Assembly: GCA_027596195.1 (NCBI GenBank)
Contig: JADGJG010000002.1
Location: 62,001 to 126,000, forward strand
Direction: 5' to 3'
DNA: 64,000 nt
From: Podochytrium sp. JEL0797
Taxonomy: Eukaryota; Chytridiomycota; Chytridiomycetes; Chytridiales; Chytriomycetaceae
Within the stretch, counting starts at the first letter, position 1; the number at the start of each line of letters is the position of its first letter. The notes under the pieces are model-generated. The model ran no database searches and had not been told where the DNA came from. It was given only the letters and a program-made list of their open reading frames with translations. Shown here in pieces: positions 1 through 31,128 of the stretch. The position numbers and the translations under genes were made by a program.

Positions 1-3000
1 CGTTTGGCGACGCGAGGAGACAAAGACAATAACGGGTTTCGTTGGGGAGTGGGTCAGAATCGCAGCGTACGTTGGCTTGTTCATGGCCTGCATTCGTGGA
101 CAATCTGGTATCCCCAAAAAACGCATCAGCAACCCCCAACCACCACCAAAAAAGCACAAAACTCACAATGCTTCCCCGCGAACCCATCAATATACACCTC
201 CAACGGCACAGGCCTCACCGAATGCCTGAAATTAAACAACCCTTGATTCTCAATATTCAACCAATCCCCGAGATCCGTCGCATTCGCCAACGCCGTACTC
301 AACCCCACAACCCGAATCTTTCGCTTCGTCTGCGCGCTTATATAATTCATGCGTGACACAATCACTTCCAAAATCGGGCCACGATCTCCCCCCAACAAAT
401 GAATCTCATCGATAATCACGAGAGACACGTCCGTCACGTATTTGCGCGTTTGCCAGTTTCGACTGATTCCGTCCCACTTCTCGGGAGTCGTAATGATGAT
501 ATCGGCGCCTTGGATCGTGTGCAAGTCCGGGGTCACGTCTCCAGTCAATTCAACGAGTTTGCGGCCCATTTGGCGAGTGAGGCGGAGCCGCCAGTCTTGC
601 ACGCGTTCGCGCACGAGGGCTTTCATGGGTGCAATGTAGACGACTTTGGATTTGGGAAAGTCTCGGAACGCGGCCCTGAGGTGTGTGCGTTTCAATATGA
701 ATTCTCAAACCGCACACAAAAAAAACACAAACCACAACGCCAACTCCGCAGCCACAGTCTTTCCGGACCCCGTCGGCGCCCCGACCAACGCATTATTCTG
801 CGTCCGATACAACGTATGAAAAATCTGCGTCTGTACGGGATTGAAATACTCAAACCGTTGCAAACAAATCTCCTCCAACACGGGATTGTCCAACGCAGAA
901 ACAGGCAACGGCTGTAAACTCAACAATTCCGTGTGAGGGGACCGTTTCATGGTTGGCAGGATGAGATGTTTGAAGGAGATTGCTTCGACCGTTTCGGAAC
1001 CGATCCATTTGTCGCTCATGGCGCGCACGTAGATTTGAGGGGGTAGTTCGTCGGTGGTGGAGTCGGTGCGTGGGATGGGGATTGTGAAGACGAGTTTTTG
1101 GGGTTCGAGGGACGATTTCTTGGACAAGAGAAAGTATTCCGAGTGGAGAATCTCGATGCTTTCCGAGTCTTCGACCCAGATCCAGAACGGTTCAACGGAT
1201 CCGTGAACGCGATCGTTCCAATAAAAGTCTGCCCCAAAAGATCAATACTCACGCCACAACAAAGAAATCCAAACCAACAAACCTGCAGTAATCCACAACG
1301 TAATCCGAATCACAGACTGCGTAATCGGCGCAACCTCCGTCTCCAAATACAAAGTCGGAAACTGTTCCACACACTTGGCCACACTACCCCCCATCTTCAT
1401 ATGCCGCACAACCCCCCCAATCTCCTTTACATCCATAAACCGCAACTCGTCCATCCCCATATTCGAATGATTGAGTTTCTGAATAATCTCATACGGCAAG
1501 TCAAACTGCGACAGCGGGTGTTCAAACGCCCACATTCTGCGATCCACCATCTTGCAGAGAGACAACACGACGGAGGCGGTTGGGCCCCAATTGCGGGAAA
1601 GGCAAATCTCAAACAAGGCGCGCAGGATGCGTGCCGCGTTCTGTGCCACGTACGCGCAATCCGAGACGAGTGCGAAATTCTCGAGGGATGCTCGAGAAAT
1701 GTACGCTTGCAACAGAATATTCGTCTTTCCATACGCCGTGTCCGTACCCCCCTTCACATCGCAATGACAGCTACTCCGCATCAACCCCTTCAACTCCACC
1801 ACCTCATCCTCCCTCAACTTGATATTCTCAAACTCCGTCGCCCGACTCAACATGCTCAACGCGTCCGCCTCCGTCATACTCGGCCGCATCATTTCATTAA
1901 ACACTTCAATCGTGACGCTGCGGATATAATACGAGCTCGAGATGCGACACAGGTCTTTCGGGGACAGGAACCCGTTGCGTTCGTCAAACACAATCATTTG
2001 GGCCTTGTGGAGGTTTCGGGCCGCGAGGGTGATGAGTTCGCCGCATCGTTTGCCGAGGTTCGGGTCGTCTTCGAGGACTTTCCAGTCGAGGCCGTAGTGG
2101 AAGGGGTTTTTGCGCATTCGGACAAAGAGGTAGGAGTAGCTGAGCCATTTGATGGCTTCTTGGATGTTGGTTACGGTTCCAAGCGAGATCTGTGGCGCGC
2201 ATCGCGTGTTAGGAGTGTGTGTTTCGGAAACAAAATCAGAATCACAGGTTTACCTCCGCATTCAAATTATCCGTCAAATGCTCCGCAAACCTCGACTCAA
2301 TCGGATGCTGCATCGTCATCGCATTCACATAATGCGCCAACTTATCCTGCGTCGTAATAATATACCCAACCCCACGATCCTCATACTGCGGTCTCCCTGC
2401 CCTCCCAAAAATCTGCAACACATCGAGAATCGATAAATCGATAAACGCACCCTTTTGCGAATCGTACAACTGCGTGCCCTTGATTAGGACGGCGTACGCG
2501 GGGAGGTTGACTCCCCAGGCCAACGTGGCCGTGCAACAGAGTACGCGCATGTGTCCCTTTTCAAAACACTTTTCGACAAGGGAGCGGTCTGAGCGGAGCA
2601 TGCCAGCGTGATGGATTCCGAACCCGGATTGGAACAGTTCCTTGAGTTCCTTGTTGCGCGATTTGCTCATTTCACGTACGGAGGAGTCGTAGTTGGTTTC
2701 CTTGGTGGCTTGATCGTAGAGCAGGGAGCCGCAATCTTCGGCGAGGGCTTCGTCGCGCAGCATCATGGCCGTTTTGACCGTGTCCTTGCGCGAGTGCACA
2801 AAGACCATGACTTGATGGCCGTCGCGGATGAGATCAATGAGTTTTTCGTAGCAGACGCGGTCCATGTTGGATTTGGAGGAGGCGGATCCGGCGCGGCCTT
2901 TGGCGCCGATAAAGTGTTGTTCGAGGGGGACGGGGCGGAATCCAGAGTCAAAGTAGAAGAGGCCTTGGTATAGGTTGACGCTGAAAATGGGGGAGAGTTC

Positions 3001-5332
3001 AACAACTTGAAACGAAACGAAACCCCGCATTGCTCACCCCAGAAACTGAGCCACATCGACATAATTCGGCAACGTTGCCGACAACCCCACCACGCGAATC
3101 ATATTCTGACTCGTCTCCACAAGTCGCTGCGTGCGCGCCACGATGCTCTCAATCACGCTTCCGCGGTCTTCATGCAACAGGTGGACTTCGTCAATAATCA
3201 GGAGACGCACTTTTTGTGCCAGTTCCGTGTCTCCTGCGCCCTTTCGCGTGACAACGTCCCATTTCTCGGGGGTTGTGACAATCATTTGGGTTGCAGCAAT
3301 TTCGGCTTTCGTCAACTGCATGTCGCCTGGTCAATTTCGAAAGGAATCAGCCACACACGTGTTTCTTTGGGAGGTGGACTGTTCCACTCTCCACTCTCAA
3401 TCGCAGAAAGGGAGGACTCACCCGTCAACTCTTTCACCTGAATCCCCAACCCCCCAGCCGCCTCACTCGCGCCTAACCGTTTCGAAAACTTGGCCACAAT
3501 CTAAAAACCCAAAGAAGAAGTGCGTCAGGGGAATATGCATGGTTCGAGGGTAGGTCATGGACAGCCGAAACAAAATAATCACCTCCGCCGCCAACGCCTT
3601 CATAGGAGCCACATACACAATCTTGAACTCATTCTTCATAATAAACCCATGTTTTCGATGCTGCCCCAAACACCTCAACACAGCCAACATGGCCACGTCC
3701 GTCTTTCCCGCTCCCGTCGGTGCACACACGAGCATATTCTCGTTCGTCTCAAACGCGATCGGGTACACGAGGGATTGCACGCGGTTTAGGGAAGTGTATC
3801 CCTTGTACGCTTTTTGGATCCACGGTTCGAATTGGGTTACCGAGATGAGCGCCTCTTTGGCGCGGAAGGGTGCGACTTTGGCGACGGGGATCGTGATTTC
3901 TTCAAAGTGGTCGTATTCTTCGCGGGTGGATCCTGCGGGGAGGGTCGTGCGGACTCCGAAGGCGGCGGCGGCGGAGCTGGTCGTGTCGGCGGCTTGGTAG
4001 ACGTGGGGGTATTGGATTGCTGGGGCGGTTGTGAATGTCTGTGGTGGGGAGAGATTGGATGGTAAATGCGGGTTCGGGTCTGATTTCGAAAAGTTGATAT
4101 TTCTGTCTTGTTCGTGCTCGCTTCGCGTGTGTGGTCTTTTTGACACTAAAGCGTCACCGGCCCGCCGGGGCATCACTTCGCAACTTTCTTGCACTCTTCG
4201 AACTTCGGTTTCGAAAAGACCAACGCTGATGAATCTTCTTCGCTCGCACTTCGCTCGAATCTCGACTCTCGATTCTCGAACTTAAGCAGACAATGTTTAC
4301 CGGATTCGAAATCCCACTTGACTTGGCGCCCGCCATCAACTGGTCTTCTCTTGCACGCTTCAACGCGTCGACATCAAAGCCCAACAAAGCAGCCGATTCG
4401 ACAACGGAAGATTCAGCCTCTGATAGTTTCGAACGCTTCTTTGCTTCCTTGCGTAGCCTCTTTTGCTCGAGTTTTTCAGATTCGGAAGTGACAGTGACTT
4501 GGGCGCCGTAGAGAGGACGGTGTTGGGGTTTGGAGGATCCTCCAGCTGCAGAGGCGTGTGCGGAATGTGAACCACGGGAAGGATCGGATTCGCTCTGAGG
4601 TGGATGGGGGGGATCGAAACGCAAAAAGCGGAAATCAAAATCAGAAAACGCGAGACTCATTTTCGCGCAATCGCAGGGAAGCAAGAGAAATGGATTTACG
4701 TTTGCGACAATGTTTGCGATAATCAGTTTGCGGTTCGTCAACAGGTCTTCGACAAATTGCATGTTTCCGTAACCGAGTGAGTCAAACAGGGCGCCTTGGA
4801 TTTCGTCGTCTGAAGAGCATATGAGCAAGCGCAATAAGGACAACGAGACGGACCTCCTTGCGGATCGCGCAGGGTTGTGAAGATCTGCGTGCACAGAGCG
4901 AGGGGCGACAGGCCGCCCTCGTCGGCGAATTCGGCGAGGTGATTCTCGCATTTGCTGTGTGAGTGGGTGAGATGTGGTGTACTAATCAAGCAAGTACCTC
5001 AGCAGCCAGTCCTTGTCGAAAGTGGCGAAAGAGTTTGATTCGAACGCAAAAGAGTCGGCGTCGTGTTCGGACACGCTGTCGGCGGCGTCGCTTTCTTCGG
5101 ACGAAGAGTCGTCCGACTCTTCGGACAAAGACGCCTCGTCGCAGGCGCCCTTCTTTTTCTTCAGCGAAAAAAGCGGCGCCACAAAGGCAACGTCTCGTCC
5201 AAACTCAAACAACTCGTCGCTGTCTTCTGTCTCTGCTTCACATTCGCATCGCTGCTGAAACGCTGCTGCCACGGAGGGTGTCCACTCAGAAGTGGTTCTT
5301 TGCGCCTTGGCAACGTGGTGCAGAAAAAACAT
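1..5332 (-). CDS. SLH1: Slh1/ASCC3-type Ski2-like RNA helicase (3' end outside window)
   Basis: Slh1 (ASCC3 in animals) is the helicase of the RQT complex that splits collided ribosomes. Two helicase cassettes are visible. Cassette 1 has Walker [11 protein letters not shown] (about 3700-3730), [15 protein letters not shown] (about 3160-3205) and the motif VI stretch [14 protein letters not shown] (near 2390). A Sec63-like unit follows at 1242-2117. Cassette 2 has GAPTGSGKT (about 755-785) and [14 protein letters not shown] (about 390-430). The last exon, about 1-102, carries the cassette 2 motif around FVSSRRQT, so the gene runs off the left edge. The acidic N-terminus includes DKDWLL, spliced to a block ending in NRKLI, as in Slh1. 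The first usable ATG is at 5332; the frame is open further upstream without an ATG. Several short introns are present, for example about 4954-4997. Brr2 is the main alternative, but the cassette 1 region matches Slh1/ASCC3 better. Confidence 0.93.
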
Positions 5333-5460
5333 AGAAAAAAAAGTGGGGCAGCAATTTGTGGTAGTCGCGGTTTTATCTGTGGTCGGGAAACTCAACTGAG
5401 ACCATTTGAAAGCTTGACCACAAGTACAATTGCAATCACCACCAAGGGAGGGAGTCGCTT

Positions 5461-6099
5461 TTATTCTTCAACCATAGGGTGATACCTCCTCTCATGGCCC
5501 CTCAAATTACTCACTTGCGTCGTTTCATAGCCACATTTCCGACATACAAACGGCTTCTCCCCCGAATGAATTCTCTTATGTTTCCGCAGCTCCGTCGACT
5601 GCTTGCACGTGTACTCGCACTCCTCGCACGCAAATGGCTTCTCGCCCGTATGCCTGCGTTCATGCACCTTGAGGTTGCTCTTTTGCGTTGCTGAGTAGTC
5701 GCAGAATGCGCATTGGAATGGTTTCGTGCCCGTGTGGGAGTTTGAGTGGCGTGTGAGTGCGGTTTTGGATGGGCACGTGAATTCACACACGGAGCATGCG
5801 AAGCGGTTTCGTTTGCGCGTGTTGGTTGGTTGAGTTGGTGAACTTGAAGTATGCTCGTCGTTGCCGTCGTCCCGGGGTTTCCGCGGAGCAGTGTGTCGAT
5901 TATCACGATCGTCTGCGCCCGAGCTTGAATCGCAATTGGTGCCAGATTCATCCGCAGTTTGCCCGAGGGAACTCGAACCGTTGCTGCCTGCGCTTTCGTT
6001 GGACTCCGCCGAGACTGAGGAAACCGCAGCCGGTTGTTCCTCAGCACAAGGTGCCTTAGCGGTGCTCGTGGTGGTAGTAGACACGCTTCGCGGTTTCAT
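5461..6099 (-). CDS. C2H2 zinc-finger protein, 212 aa
   Basis: The reading frame is intronless and starts at an ATG (6097-6099). The N-terminal half (about residues 1-100) is rich in Ser, Thr, Asn and Asp and looks disordered. Four tandem C2H2 fingers follow, at about residues 100-122, 128-150, 156-178 and 184-207. Each has C-x2-C and H-x3/4-H, and they are joined by TGEKPF/SGEKPF-type linkers, the hallmark of sequence-specific DNA-binding fingers. The last finger lies almost at the C-terminus. It is probably a nuclear transcription regulator; the target is unknown. It lies on the same strand as, and only 128 bp upstream of, the Slh1 start codon. No orthologue is recognisable from the fingers alone. 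Confidence 0.85.
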   Translation of the reverse strand: MKPRSVSTTTTSTAKAPCAEEQPAAVSSVSAESNESAGSNGSSSLGQTADESGTNCDSSSGADDRDNRHTAPRKPRDDGNDEHTSSSPTQPTNTRKRNRFACSVCEFTCPSKTALTRHSNSHTGTKPFQCAFCDYSATQKSNLKVHERRHTGEKPFACEECEYTCKQSTELRKHKRIHSGEKPFVCRKCGYETTQVSNLRGHERRYHPMVEE

Positions 6100-6213
6100 C
6101 TCGGAGTTGATGGGGGAGATTGAGGCTGGAGGCGCGTTTTGGCTGATTGGTGAAGAAAAAAATAATCAAAACTCCGACGAAACCCGCTCAAACCTCGCGA
6201 GGCGCGCTTTTAC

Positions 6214-6440
6214 GCCCCCCCACAATCACTTCTCAGGTCATCCAACGCGCATCTATTTGGAACACACAGTTGGCTGCTTTCTATCCTGGCAAGCACATCC
6301 TGCTTCCTTGACGTGATCAAAATCCCGAAACCGAACATATATCGCAGCGTCAATCCTTGACACCCAGTTCGCGCACCAAAAATTGGAAAGATCTGCCTCC
6401 CCCTGGTCACGCCTGTCACAAGCATGATTTGGCGCCGCTG
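6214..6440. repeat. Intergenic direct repeat R1, copy 1
   Basis: This stretch is matched by 6491-6720 at an offset of about 277 bp. The best-conserved block is TTCCTTGACGTGATCAAAAT, at about 6305-6324 in this copy. Homology continues through TTGACACCCA and GATCTGCCTCC to TTTGGCGCC near the end. There is no coding potential in either copy. Confidence 0.75.
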
Positions 6441-6490
6441 AGCAACTCGCATAAATCCCTCATTGGCCACCTACGCTATTGCCGGCCTCC

Positions 6491-6720
6491 GCCCCCACGA
6501 TCGCCTCTCAAGTCATCAAACGCGCGTCTATTTCGTGCACACATGTAGCTACTTTCTATCATGGTGAGAATATCCTGATTCCTTGACGTGATCAAAATCC
6601 TGAAACTGACACCGCGAATCCTTGACACCCATTTCGCGCACCAAAACTTGAAAAGATCTGCCTCCGTGGACTCCTCCTTCGCGTTCCGTCGCGGCTGTCA
6701 AAATTTCGTTTTGGCGCCAC
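6491..6720. repeat. Intergenic direct repeat R1, copy 2
   Basis: This is the second copy of R1 and carries scattered substitutions relative to 6214-6440. Shared landmarks are AACGCG..TCTATTT, the 20-nt TTGACGTGATCAAAAT core and TTTGGCGCC. The divergence indicates an old tandem duplication rather than an assembly echo. Confidence 0.75.
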
Positions 6721-6810
6721 CAAACGCTATTTTTTGTATTTGAATTCCGTGTTTCCCCCCTCTCCTCACACAACTCACCCAAAAACTCATTTTTACATCC
6801 ACCAGGCATC

Positions 6811-7004
6811 CTACTGTTTCTTCGCTAGTGTCTCTGCAGTTGTTGTACCGGCTCTCTGACTCGCAAGAAATCGCCACTCGTTGGGACCTAACAACCCCAC
6901 GCTGATTGTTGGTGCAACAACTGCAGTGGAGCTGGCGTTAGGTATATTGTAATTTGGAATATGCTGACCCATTTGTTTCCCTGCAGGCGGTGGGACATGT
7001 TGAC
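6811..7004. repeat. Intergenic repeat R2, copy A (with internal inverted repeat)
   Basis: R2 occurs as A (6811-7004), B (7012-7205) and a partial copy C (7391-7470). Each copy opens with ACTGTTTCTTC and CTGCAGTTGTTGTACC. Copies A and B end with GGCGGTGGGACATGTTGACG. Inside A, CTGCAGTTGTTGTACC (6834-6849) is complementary at 15 of 16 positions to GGTGCAACAACTGCAG (6911-6926), so a transcript could fold into a stem with a loop of about 61 nt. Confidence 0.8.
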
Positions 7005-25118: not shown

Positions 25119-27359
25119 ATGCTGAAACAGGTCCTTAGAAGCGGAAGAGCCGGCCTTGTGTCTGCCGTGACTGCGAGAAACAGCTGTGCTGCGATGCCCG
25201 CTCGGTGCGTGTCTCCCTTTGCCGTTTTTGACGTGTGGACTGATCTTTTGTCTTTTCAGCGTGATGGCCATGCAAACCCGCTTCCTCAGTAAGTGTTCCA
25301 TCTTGAATATTTCTTGTTTGTGTATGGGATGTGCCTGGATCGTGTCGTACGGCTCCCAAACATGCTCCCTCTCGAGCCTCCTTATCACGTCAATTTTCGT
25401 CGATCAGACTTGGGCCGTCCAAATCAATCTTACTAAGCGTTTCCCCGTTTGCAGCTGAGAAACTCATCAAGACCCCGCCCATGGCCGATTCTATTACCGA
25501 AGGAACCCTGACGAAATGGCACAAATGTATGATCGCAGTATTCGCTAAATTTTCGGGCTTTTCGCTCATCCTCATACTGTGCGGTCTTGAACAGCCATCG
25601 GTGAATTCGTTGCCCGCGACGAACCCATCGCCACCATCGAAACCGACAAGGTGTGGTCGATTCTTGCGTTGATCAATTTGGTTTCTCATTGTTCTCGTTT
25701 GCCATCAGGTCGACGTGACCGTCAACTCTGCCGAGTCTGGAACCATTCTCGAATACTTTGCAAAAGAGGGAGACAACGTGTTGGTTGGATCCAACCTCTT
25801 CAAGGTTGATTTGGACGGCGTTGCTGGAGCTGCTGCTGCTGCCCCTGTTGCGGCGGCTGCTCCTCCCACTCCCGCTGCCGCTGCTCCCGTTGCTGCTGCC
25901 CCAGTCGCGGCCGCTTCTTCTGGACCAGGTGAGCTTGCTTTTTCGGATGGGAGGAACTCGTCAGAATGCTTACTTCGCGCGATTACAGTTGTTGAGAAGA
26001 TTGTGAAGACCCCCTCCCTCGCTGATTCTATTACTGAAGGAACTTTGACAAAGCTGCACAAGGGTATTGATGCCATTCTTTGACCTCCGCAAAACCGCGT
26101 TTTTCTTTTGGATCACCAACCCATTCATTTTATCCCAGCCGTCGGCGAATACGTTGCCCGCGACGAACCTATCGCCACCATTGAAACCGACAAGGTGGAT
26201 GTGACTGTGAACTCTGCCGAAGCCGGAATCATTATGGAGTGGTTTGCCAAGGAGGGAGAGACGATCGCGGTCGGAAGCAACTTGTTCAAGGTCAACACGA
26301 ACGGGGTTGCTGGGGCTCCTGCGGCACCTAAGGCTGCTGTCCCTGTGGCCGCTGCCCCCGTTGCTGCGGCTCCAAAAGCTGCCGCCGCGGCTCCTGCCCC
26401 TAAGGCCGCCGCCCCTGGTAATTCTCGCAAAAAGACTTTCATCTTTCCAACGGTCGACTGAATTTGCCTTTTTATTTCTGACAGTTACCCCTGTCGCTTC
26501 GATCCCAGTGCCCACCGGAGCCCGTCTCGAACGCCGCGTCAAGATGAACAGAATGCGCAAGACGATCGCGTCCCGGTTAAAGGAGTCCCAAAACACTGCT
26601 GCCGCCTTGACCACCTTCAACGAAATTGACATGAGGTACAAAAAAGTTTCCTCCCTTCCCTATTCGAAATTCTTTACTCATCGGAAATCACTTTCCCCCG
26701 CCAGTGCCCTCATGGAATTCCGCTCCAAATATAAGGACGCCGTGATGGACAAATACGGAGTCAAGATGGGCTTCATGGGTGCCTTCATCAAGGCCGCGTC
26801 GCTCGCGTTGAAGGAGATTCCCGAAGTCAACGCGCGCATGGAAGGCGATGAAGTCGTGTACTCTGACTTCGTTGACATTTCCGTCGCCGTGGCGACCCCG
26901 AAGGGACTCGTGACGCCCGCTGTGAGAAACTGCCAAAACATGAGCTTGTTGGCGATTGAGAAGGAGATGGCTGATTTGGGCAAGAAGGTTCGTTGGTCGA
27001 GCGATCCCCTCCCATGAAATCTGCGCGAAAACTCACCAATTTTTTTTCACATCAAGGCCAAGGCCAACCAAATCACCATCGAAGACCTCGCCGGTGGAAC
27101 CTTCACCATCTCGAACGGCGGTGTGTTTGGCTCCCTCATGGGAACCCCCATCATCAACCAACCGCAATCCGCGATCCTCGGCATGCACGCGACCAAGGAC
27201 CGCGCTGTCGTTGTGAACGGACAAGTGGTTGTGCGTCCCATGATGTACGTAGCGCTCACGTATGACCACAGATTGATTGATGGAAGAGAGGCTGTGACGT
27301 TCTTGGTGAGGTTGAAGGAGTTGATTGAGGACCCGAGAAGAATGTTGTTGGAGATTTAG
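25119..27359 (+). CDS. KGD2: 2-oxoglutarate dehydrogenase E2 (succinyltransferase) with two lipoyl domains
   Basis: This is the E2 core of the TCA-cycle 2-oxoglutarate dehydrogenase. The N-terminus ([20 protein letters not shown]) is a presequence. Two lipoyl domains follow, each with [21 protein letters not shown], (E)[15 protein letters not shown] and VDVTVNSAE, so both keep the lipoylated Lys. They are separated by Ala/Pro linkers. No peripheral subunit-binding domain is seen, as usual for E2o. The catalytic domain runs from [18 protein letters not shown] to [17 protein letters not shown], with the active-site His and Asp. There are about nine exons, and the intron after the [13 protein letters not shown] block sits at the same place in both lipoyl domains. 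Fungal Kgd2 normally has one lipoyl domain. The ATG is at 25119. Confidence 0.93.
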
Positions 27360-27584
27360 AATGGCTTGAGGGGTTTTTTCTTTGGTTTCTCATATTTGAT
27401 TTGTTTGGTGATTTGTGAGGAGTAATGAAGTACTCTTTTGATACGTTAGCATAACAAAAAAAGGGAAATGATATCAGACGCCACGTTTAAGCGACCTTGA
27501 ATATGGGTAGGCGCGGAAAATTTTTCAAAATCACCAACCTGCCAAAATAAATCGGTTTTAATCTCCTAATAATCAGAATTGAAG

Positions 27585-27704
27585 ATGTACCCAGCATCCT
27601 CCCTTCGCTTTGTCTTCCACACCGATCTCTGGGGCCCTTACTTTACGATGTTCATCTGGCTGCTTCCCGCTACTTCTCGAATGGAGCGATCCGATACGGC
27701 TTGA
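27585..27704 (+). pseudogene. Truncated 5' copy of the TLC-heme peroxidase gene
   Basis: The ATG at 27585 opens MYPASSLRFVFHTDLWGPYF, nearly identical to the intact start at 28266. After about 33 codons homology stops, and an in-frame TGA (27702-27704) follows. Only the first membrane helix is encoded. Confidence 0.88.
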
Positions 27705-27927
27705 CGACTATAAACGCGATAACAGTTGGCGTTCAGCAAAACTACTCGGATCCGCGCTATCTCCTTCCAAATTGTCTTGAAATGTGCCAAGTAATAGGTC
27801 TTATTTGGCCCTATTGCAAGCGCTATTGCAGTTTACTCACCACGAGTAAACTGGGTTGGGCTTCAAAAGTTTTGGGAGAGAATGTATCGCGAGGAGCAAT
27901 GAAATGCTTATCTCGTAAAATAGTACA

Positions 27928-28115
27928 CCGATCCTCGGCGTGCACGCGACCAAGGACCGCGCTGGCGTTATGAACGGACAAGTAGATGTGCGTCCCATGA
28001 TGTACATGGCGCTCACGTATGACCACAGATTGATTGATGGAAGAAAGGCTGTGACGTTCTTGGTGTGGTTGAAGGAGTTGATTGTGGACCCGAGGCGAAT
28101 GTTGTCGAGATTTAG
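27928..28115 (+). pseudogene. Decayed 3' copy of KGD2
   Basis: This copy matches KGD2 bases about 27173-27359. It still reads [20 protein letters not shown] but carries substitutions. A one-base loss just before the end puts the old GAGATTTAG stop out of frame. There is no start codon or upstream catalytic domain. Confidence 0.9.
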
Positions 28116-28265
28116 AGGAGCTGGGGTTTTTCACATCGGAATTGTGGGCTGGAAGGGGCCAAATTGTATCACAAAATCGACAATCTCGACTGGGCGGTCG
28201 CGGAAAAATTGTTGATAAATTTGCCAAAAAATCGGTTTTTAATCTCCCAAAATCAGCTTCGAACG

Positions 28266-30707
28266 ATGTATCCAACATCCTCCCTTCGATTCGTCTTCCA
28301 CACAGATCTCTGGGGCCCCTACTTCGCAATGTTCTTGTGGCTCCTTCCCGCTACTTGGGCCCTGTACCGCGTGGCCTTGGAAGTGACGAAGCGGGCTTGC
28401 CCGGATGTCAAGAAAAAGGACGCCTTCGCCCTCTACTTTGTCAACCTCGTACTGTCTACGAGTGCAAGCGTCTGCTTCATCCAAAACCTCGCGCCCGTGT
28501 ATTTTGGCAGCGCGTCCATCTTCCTTTACGCGAACGAGTTCTTTGCCGGCATCAACATTGTTGTGTGCTTGTACGCCGCAGAGATCATGATCCGAAATGA
28601 AATGCCAGTGTCCCTCTTGGTCCATCACGTTTCCTGCCTCATTGTCGCCTTGTGGGGAGTCCTGATGAGAAACGAGCCGCAAATGAAGCAGCTTGTCGTC
28701 ATGCTGTTGTTTGCGACGCTTGAGCAGCCGTGCCAGATTGGCATGATCTGTTACCGTGTTGGTAGCCCCGCGGTGCGAAAAGCGGGCCTTGCATTTGCGT
28801 TTGTGGCGTTTGCAATCACGCGTGCGGCCAACATTGCCATGGTGTTCTGGTTGGCGACTCAGGAGTGGCGGTTGTATGAAACTTCTTTTCAAGTTGTGTT
28901 CACGCTCTGGGTGATGTTGATTATATGGGCACAGTATATGACGTTGGTCATTTACTGGAGTTTGTTGAAGCGCGTTCGGAACCCGAAGGTTAGACGGGTT
29001 TCCCATTTTTCAAACCAAATGCTAATATCACCTTTATAGACTCGCTCTTCAGCCGGTATTGCAAAAGATACGGACGAATGGGTCGTGTCTGACGGCAACT
29101 CGGTGCCAATTCCAGTCGAGCAAATGGTCCAGCTCTCTACCGGTGAGCCATCACCCGAAGACCCACCCCACGCGGAGTCCCGCAAGAAGAATACCACAAG
29201 AAAGTCCTTCCAGTCTTTTGCCACTTTCGGTAGCGCCGGTGCCGCACTGCTTGCTTGCGTGTTGATGATCGTGTTCATCCCAAGCAAGGTCTCATACACC
29301 CCGTACCATCTCGACGGCTCCAACAACCATCCTACCTATCCGGCCTCTGGACAAGCCAACATCAGCTTCGCGAGTCTCCAAGATCCGATCCACCCTGCCA
29401 ACCTCCCATCCACCAAGGACGTCTGTTCGCGCGTTTTGAACCGCACGCTGTTCCCTCCTTCCTTTGACCCACAGAGCAGATCTCTGTTTGACGTCAGTTT
29501 TGGACAGTTTGTCAGTCACGACCTTACCCTGACCTCGACCAACAAGAGCGCATTGCCCATTTTTGTCGGTGCTACTCCGGAGGAAACGGCTTGGCCCTGG
29601 ATCGACAACAACGAGCAAACTGCCTGGTTGGATTTGAGCAACCTGTATGGAACCACGCCGGAAGCTCTCCAGTTTGTCCGCAACGCGAGTGACCCGTGCA
29701 AGCTCCGTGTCGACCCTTCCGGGAATCTGTTGTTTGAGAACGGTCAAGTGGTGACGGGAGACCAACGCGCTACCGAGAGTCCCTTCTTGCTTGGCTGGCA
29801 CACGCTGTTCACGAAGGAGCACAACTACGAATGTAACTTGCTTGCAACCGTGTTTCCAGAACTTACGGGCGACGCGTTGTTCTTCAAGGCGCGTGAGGCT
29901 ACGATTCTGATGTATCAGCGGATTGCTTTCTCCGATTACTTTACCGGATATACCGCGGCAGGTGGTCTCCGTTACGGTTTGACGGATCGTAACGTTGATT
30001 ATCTCGTCAACGAGAAGCAAGTCACCATCAACAACGAGTTTGACATTCTCTACCGCCTGCACACCATGATTCCAGATTCCATTAAAATCATTGCAAGCAA
30101 TGGGTCTTTGGTTGGCACGTATTCGATTGACCAGGTCTTCTACAACACCACGCTGTCGAACAAGTACGGCCTGGACGCGATGCTCCGAGGTGCCATGTCA
30201 ACAGTCTCAAACCAATACGGTCGGGGATATCCCGCCGCAATGACCACGGACCGGTTCAACCTCTGCCAAATCGACCTGCTGAGATCGCGTGAGCGAGGCC
30301 TCGTCACTTACAACACGGCACGCAGAGGGTATTCTCTACCACCCGTCACCGAATGGTCTCAAGTCACATCGATTCCGGTCATTCAAGAGTCTCTGAAGGA
30401 GTTGTACGCGTCGGTGGATGAGGTGGAAATGATGGTTGGGTCGTTCTTGGACCCTCTCGCCAAATACAACAGTTTCGGAGTGATTGGATTGCAAGTGATG
30501 ATGGAGCAAGTGTTACTGGTTGGGCGCTCTGACCGGTGGGGTATCTTGAATTTTGACGTTGCACCGAGGGATTTGGCGTGGCAGAACCAGTTGGTTCAGA
30601 GCACGTATGGTAGATCTTTGTATGATGTGATCAAGCAGCATTTGGGGGTCACATGCGTTGCGACGGATGTTTTGCGCGTCGGGGAAGGCCGTCTTGTTTG
30701 TGATTGA
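28266..30707 (+). CDS. TLC-domain protein fused to a fatty-acid-oxygenase-like heme peroxidase
   Basis: Two exons (28266-28988, 29040-30707) join in phase to 796 aa. The intron has a TGCTAATA branch-like site. Exon 1 is almost all membrane: about seven helices in residues 15-240, with the PVSLLVHHVSCLIVALWG block and layout of TLC domains (Lag1/TRAM/CLN8). A basic linker and one more helix (GSAGAALLACVLMIVF) follow, then an animal-type heme peroxidase domain. There FGQFVSHDLTL gives the distal Gln and His, GDQRATESP the catalytic Arg and heme-linking Glu, and HTLFTKEHN is typical. The proximal His lies in EFDILYRLHTMIPDS, with Tyr three residues before it as in cyclooxygenase and linoleate diol synthase. 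I infer an enzyme acting on membrane lipids. The alternative is two genes, with the first ending at 29039, but the second part has no well-placed ATG. Confidence 0.8.
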
Positions 30708-30752: not shown

Positions 30753-30788
30753 AAATCGTATATCAATCGTTCGGACTACACGTTCTTC

Positions 30789-30929
30789 GCAAACTACCTG
30801 ACTTTCCTCGGATTCAACCCAGACTTCTCCACGAACTTCCGCTCCGAAAATAATCTGCCTTTCCTGTTTTTCGGCGCGGAAATTCGCGGAGAAGCCTGGG
30901 TTGAATCTGAGGAAAGTCAGATAGTTTGC
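30789..30929. repeat. Large near-perfect inverted repeat (63-nt arms, 15-nt loop)
   Basis: Arm 30789-30851 is complementary to arm 30867-30929 at about 90% of positions. Both arms contain TGACTTTCCTC, GATTCAACCCAG and CTTCTCC when read towards the loop. Most differences are transitions. A transcript from either strand would fold into one long hairpin. Confidence 0.93.
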
Positions 30930-31128
30930 AAATAACCTGGCTTAGTTGTCCGCTGGTGCCTGGGCAAGTTCTTGGGAGGCCACAATAAGCGCATTGACTG
31001 GCGATGAAGGAAATGGTCAGTGAAGGACAATTCCGGGGTGAAATCGTGAGGAGTATTCATGAATTTTTTTCTAATGCTTCCATGTAAATGGGGTGGCGGG
31101 TTCGGGGTTCTTAGGGGGAATCTGGGGA

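Follow-up and report, generated by a model that had tools for sequence, protein, structure and literature searches.

A 64,000-nucleotide stretch of the genome of Podochytrium sp. JEL0797 (positions 62001-126000 of contig C112 in an assembly of 24.4 Mb; hereafter, the window) contains a two-exon gene on the plus strand at window positions 28266-30707. Its predicted product of 796 amino acids joins a seven-helix membrane domain to a heme peroxidase domain (Table 1). A preliminary description had proposed a single spliced frame for membrane domain, linker, further helix and heme peroxidase. This structure was confirmed: the NCBI gene model HDU98_004262 (P0001) uses the same intron, with an identical exon junction (...NPK/TRSS...). 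When the intron is retained, the frame closes at a TAG at 29037-29039, the last three bases of the intron, so that retention would yield a protein consisting of the membrane barrel only. P0001 carries 55 more N-terminal residues than the 796-residue reading. Most of these come from a relic, upstream of the fusion gene, of the 2-oxoacid dehydrogenase E2 gene next to it (residues 2-45 match PF00198), and the front of P0001 apparently results from one wrong join. The start at 28266 was supported by the MYP start that the window protein shares with a Podochytrium paralogue (P0002) and with a tandem relic at 27585.

Table 1. Features of the fusion gene and of adjacent relics, in window coordinates.
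Feature	Position	Strand	Basis
Start codon ATG	28266	+	window DNA
Exon 1: seven-helix TLC-like (predicted ceramide-synthase-fold) membrane domain, residues 1-241	28266..28988	+	hydropathy, AF2, VIA-align
His120-His121 codons, helix 4, invariant in 3/3 members	28623..28628	+	alignment, AF2 model
Glu153, invariant acidic residue at helix-5 break	28722..28724	+	alignment, AF2 model
Intron, phase 0, 51 nucleotides, GT...AG, contains TGCTAAT	28989..29039	+	same junction in P0001
Exon 2: linker, helix 8, heme peroxidase, residues 242-796	29040..30707	+	PF03098, hydropathy, fold match
Eighth membrane helix, approximately residues 300-323, basic stretch ahead of it	29214..29285	+	hydropathy, alignment
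Distal site GQFVSHD: Gln397, His401, Asp402	29502..29522	+	alignment
GDQRATE: Arg484, Glu487	29757..29777	+	alignment
LYRLH: Tyr579, proximal His582	30048..30062	+	alignment
Stop codon TGA	30705-30707	+	window DNA
Tandem relic of exon 1 start; DNA 84.8% over 138 columns, protein 35 amino acids at 80%	27540..27689	+	DNA and protein identity
Relic copy of the final part of the upstream E2 gene (92.6%), partly joined into P0001	27929..28116	+	DNA identity, PF00198

A search for the same fusion in related chytrids, as suggested in the preliminary description, found it in Siphonaria sp. JEL0065 (P0005, a gene model of 981 amino acids with 40% identity) and in the second Podochytrium gene model P0002 (partial, 483 amino acids; 49-52% identity to the window protein). 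In both, the membrane domain, linker, helix and peroxidase follow one another as in the window protein. The DNA at the end of contig C655 (L022, 2662-3146) contains a decayed third copy with the same order, with a deletion in between and cut by the contig end. A heme-domain relative from Rhizoclosmatium hyalinum (P0004, 487 amino acids, 56% identity) begins inside helix 8. All three genera belong to the Chytriomycetaceae; P0002, P0004 and P0005 are known as predicted proteins only. Since these searches scored only the 8000 candidates that shared most words, the family may have more members. When the membrane domain of P0002 was searched against approximately 5.8 billion proteins, only P0002 itself was recovered at E ≤ 1 among 790 candidates, a result that is no proof of the absence of the domain elsewhere because the length window applied (266-845 amino acids) left out P0001 and P0005. 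Query A4 found no relative in prokaryote genomes and viral contigs, nor did P0006 in viral contigs.

P0005 bears the source flag UNVERIFIED_CONTAM. Ahead of its barrel, residues 3-170 match part of a heme-thiolate peroxygenase (PF01328, profile positions 40-185, E = 2.8e-25). This piece is without the first 39 profile positions, so that exons may be missing from the model or two genes may have been joined; the front of P0005 could be over-joined. Podochytrium itself has two PF01328 matches, both on contigs other than that of the window.

Two neighbouring genes might have been misread as one, given that the fusion is known from gene models (P0001, P0002 and P0005), that P0001 itself has one apparently wrong join and that translation from the first Met in exon 2 could give a signal-anchored peroxidase. 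However, the exons are only 51 nucleotides apart, the NCBI model removes this gap at the same sites, and the domain order recurs in P0002, P0005 and the C655 copy. A misjoin is therefore very improbable.

The heme domain in exon 2 was shown to belong to the peroxidase-cyclooxygenase superfamily. It was matched by the An_peroxidase profile (PF03098, E = 4.8e-54; 184.3 bits vs a curated cut-off of 25), and a heme-peroxidase fold was found for the predicted model (VIA-align on the whole model tested the heme domain only). The catalytic motifs of the preliminary description, with distal Gln and His, Arg and Glu, and a Tyr three residues before the proximal His, were all located (Table 1). In a 17-row alignment, both the distal and the proximal His were present. 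In phmmer alignment, Tyr579 (Y579-RL-H582) stood opposite the Tyr of cyclooxygenase-2 (COX-2) and alpha-dioxygenase (alpha-DOX), while the site of COX Tyr348 was gapped. The Arg-x-x-Glu motif reads RATE in the window protein, while Gln replaces Glu in P0004 and P0005. No P450 profile matched exon 2 at E ≤ 5 or P0001 at E ≤ 1, and the protein ends at residue 796. In a tree of the 17 peroxidase rows (three chytrid, six alpha-DOX-like and eight others), the chytrid rows clustered together (100/100) and, with the alpha-DOX-like rows, were split from the other eight (91/93). The chytrid and alpha-DOX-like groups both sit on branches of 1.6, and the tree program gave a warning of a false long-branch join; the placement is tentative.

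For exon 1, hydropathy analysis gave overlapping peaks that were read as seven helices, in agreement with the original count, and a single peak in exon 2. An AF2 model of exon 1 likewise contained seven membrane helices, with helix 5 broken at residues 152-153. VIA-align placed this predicted fold with TLC proteins (matches to CerS6, Lac1 and Lag1). The model thus supports a TLC-like, ceramide-synthase-fold barrel of six helices plus one outer helix. The TLC-type assignment of the preliminary description held at this level of predicted fold only. It failed the sequence test set in that description, as no TLC profile (PF03798) matched exon 1 in Pfam scans at E ≤ 5 or ≤ 1, nor any of the three members (window protein, P0002 and P0005) at E ≤ 10. 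The only Pfam match to their barrels was DUF7937 (0.23-0.81), in the Siphonaria protein. A PF03798 search of the Podochytrium genome listed seven matches, none of them in the window. An NCBIfam scan gave no link to TLC (single-member matches to YneK, 0.032, and to an archaeal STT3, 2.5, were taken as chance), nor did phmmer against the PDB (coatomer zeta, 0.46-0.86, also taken as chance); a profile search of the PDB gave no match for the membrane domain. A local hhalign comparison with a five-sequence ceramide synthase (CerS) core was suggestive only. A genome search for ELO (PF01151) was uninformative, as its controls were equally silent.

The His-His of the Lag1p motif was present in all three members and lined up with the CerS pair in one hhalign run. 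We propose that His120-His121 is the counterpart of the His211/His212 pair of CerS6 (PMC11919693), on the basis of helix number and of a profile alignment of 18 columns. The Asp239/Asp242 pair of the Lag1p motif was absent: the helix-5 break reads ATLEQP, with Glu153 as the sole acidic residue. Across the membrane domain, 74 of 243 columns were invariant, including HH, E, R and N at positions within the helices. Compared with P0002 and P0005, respectively, the barrel was 50% and 40% identical, as against approximately 30% for the linker, and helix 8 matched at only 8/26 and 3/26 positions. The barrel thus probably has a role beyond anchoring.

The basic linker and the one further helix expected before the peroxidase were both found, the helix as a hydropathy peak. 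Six of seven sequons in the window protein lie beyond helix 8, and none in residues 1-241. With helix 8 between barrel and heme domain, basic residues before it and sequons after it, the sequence fits best with a predicted topology in which the linker is cytosolic and the heme domain lumenal (or extracellular). The heme domain of COX is lumenal. P0002 has one barrel sequon, at residue 136 in the helix 4-5 loop, which would also be lumenal under the proposed topology. Six cysteines are common to the window protein, P0004 and P0005.

With roughly even confidence, we favour an interpretation in which a membrane-bound oxygenase of fatty acids, facing the lumen, is coupled to a barrel that binds acyl chains; this activity is inferred. 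The enzyme would work like a dioxygenase (DOX) coupled to an acyl-handling barrel, and we do not file it with the ceramide synthase, COX or Ppo families. In such a mechanism, peroxide would oxidize the heme, Tyr579 would turn into a radical and take hydrogen from a polyunsaturated acyl chain, and addition of O2 would lead to a lipid hydroperoxide on the lumenal side. The barrel would bind acyl chains and either supply the oxygenase with substrate or use His120-His121 to transfer an oxygenated acyl group to or from a membrane lipid. In a bolder version, which we consider doubtful, a His-His acyl-transfer barrel of the ceramide-synthase fold and a Tyr-radical lipid oxygenase in one chain would form a bifunctional enzyme. 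Acyl groups would be oxygenated and then attached to membrane lipids, or detached from them, while staying in the membrane. Such an enzyme, possibly with a heme-thiolate peroxygenase in front in Siphonaria, would be a third type of solution, alongside COX acting with separate P450s and the DOX-P450 fusions of Ppo.

Several observations weigh against the favoured interpretation. By sequence and by fold, the heme domain was matched best by peroxidases (DdPoxA and cyanobacterial 8s6c), not by COX. Glu487 is kept, while COX-2, alpha-DOX 4kvj and all six alpha-DOX-like rows are without it. Arg484 is kept as well; COX-2 and five of the six alpha-DOX-like rows are without it, but 4kvj and P0009 have it. 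Membrane proteins with a heme peroxidase domain do exist (DUOX, among the fold matches). These points would suit a barrel that is a mere membrane anchor or lipid sensor, attached to an ordinary lumenal or extracellular peroxidase of cell wall, halide or defence chemistry, an alternative that we rank next and consider possible, if less probable. However, the window protein shares with COX and alpha-DOX a Tyr-x-x-His into which no Gly is inserted, whereas seven of the eight other rows have the Gly (not P0014) and none has the Tyr. Asp precedes the distal His in six of the seven other rows with data, whereas the window protein has Ser. The 74 invariant columns, those within the helices included, would, moreover, be unexpected in a mere anchor when helix 8 already anchors the heme domain.

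P0004 has lost both the distal and the proximal His as well as the catalytic Tyr and is likely, from its sequence, a pseudo-peroxidase. This loss also counts against a lipid oxygenase. Together with the decayed copies at C655 and at window 27540-27689 and the lack of conservation of Glu487 across the family, it could indicate that the family, window copy included, is drifting towards roles that are scaffold-like, pseudo-enzymatic or otherwise non-catalytic. Such drift appears improbable, as the window and Siphonaria proteins both retain the distal Gln and His, the Tyr and the proximal His at an overall peroxidase identity of 44%. The oxylipin-making membrane enzyme suggested in the preliminary description is plausible as a putative function: the Tyr and both His are retained in these two proteins, yet lost in P0004.

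By eye from translations, the neighbouring frames resemble genes for an E2 acyltransferase upstream, a serine hydroxymethyltransferase and a polyprenyl synthase, with a PP1-like phosphatase downstream on the opposite strand. They look like housekeeping genes; only the E2 relic was profile-tested. The sequences at 27540-28116 are relics of one tandem duplication that spanned the end of the E2 gene and the start of the fusion gene. Within the E2 gene region, duplicated lipoyl-domain-like stretches were seen by eye at 25592-25836 and 26136-26322 (91.9% over 62 and 73.3% over 131 columns). An imperfect inverted repeat of approximately 160 bp lies directly 3' of the fusion gene, at 30779-30939 (80.7% over 161 columns). 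Elsewhere in the genome, heme-peroxidase exons at approximately 3060-6990 of locus L021 (G000:C94:5500-14000) are followed, in this order, by frames resembling DOMON, cytochrome b561, cytochrome b5 and a flavin/NAD reductase, named by eye with only the peroxidase tested; upstream lies what seems to be an incomplete copy of the end of the reductase. At 2905-4500 of locus L020 (G000:C258:1-8000), a separate alpha-DOX-like gene (EEFVSIYRMHQLLPETF) adjoins a frame that, by eye, resembles a sugar-lactone oxidase.

The window protein places two lipid-enzyme folds in one chain that were not found joined elsewhere in the searches made, and titles and abstract openings of the open-licence PMC papers listed yielded no description of a TLC-heme peroxidase fusion or of a TLC-like partner. 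On the predicted fold, it would extend the TLC/CerS fold to a sequence family missed by the Pfam profile. If active, the protein would offer a testable case of acyl handling directly coupled to oxygenation, in which signalling lipids may be made inside the membrane, and would bear on the origin of oxylipin signalling before the Dikarya.

The preliminary description had named P450 domains as the fusion partners of known fungal oxygenases of this class. According to PMC9579011, this applies to ascomycete and basidiomycete enzymes, which are DOX-P450 fusions, but DOX-like genes without P450 are reported in early-diverging fungi, including Rhizoclosmatium globosum; for the chytrid phylum, the survey found DOX-like genes and no DOX-P450 fusion. 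In Ppo and linoleate diol synthase, a heme DOX with a Tyr-radical site is fused to a second lipid-handling domain (PMC9579011, PMC13049297), and the window protein similarly combines a DOX-like heme domain with a second, putatively lipid-handling domain. In contrast to these enzymes, the partner in the window protein is an N-terminal membrane barrel rather than a C-terminal P450, and the heme domain is probably lumenal. The N-terminal part of COX (PGHS-1/2), which consists of EGF and membrane-binding parts, has no counterpart in the window protein, and alignments begin at COX chain residues 139-145. Unlike COX, the window protein has Arg-x-x-Glu and a linker, helix 8 and polytopic barrel in its chain, all ahead of the heme domain in the case of the latter three. 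With plant and bacterial alpha-dioxygenases it shares Tyr-Arg-x-His, an RxRERG-type segment and, in 4kvj, a counterpart of Arg484, whereas Glu487 is kept in the window protein only and alpha-dioxygenases have no membrane barrel. Ceramide synthases (CerS6, Lag1/Lac1) and TMEM120A resemble it in predicted barrel fold, and CerS6 also in the His-His of helix 4, but they differ in sequence (8-11% identity, no PF03798 match), in the Asp pair that the window protein lacks, and in the fused heme domain. DUOX, in which a peroxidase domain comes first and an NADPH oxidase is added, is likewise a polytopic membrane protein carrying a heme peroxidase domain, but the TLC-like fold sets the window protein apart. 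As both of its parts are known folds, the fusion is a new architecture rather than a new fold.
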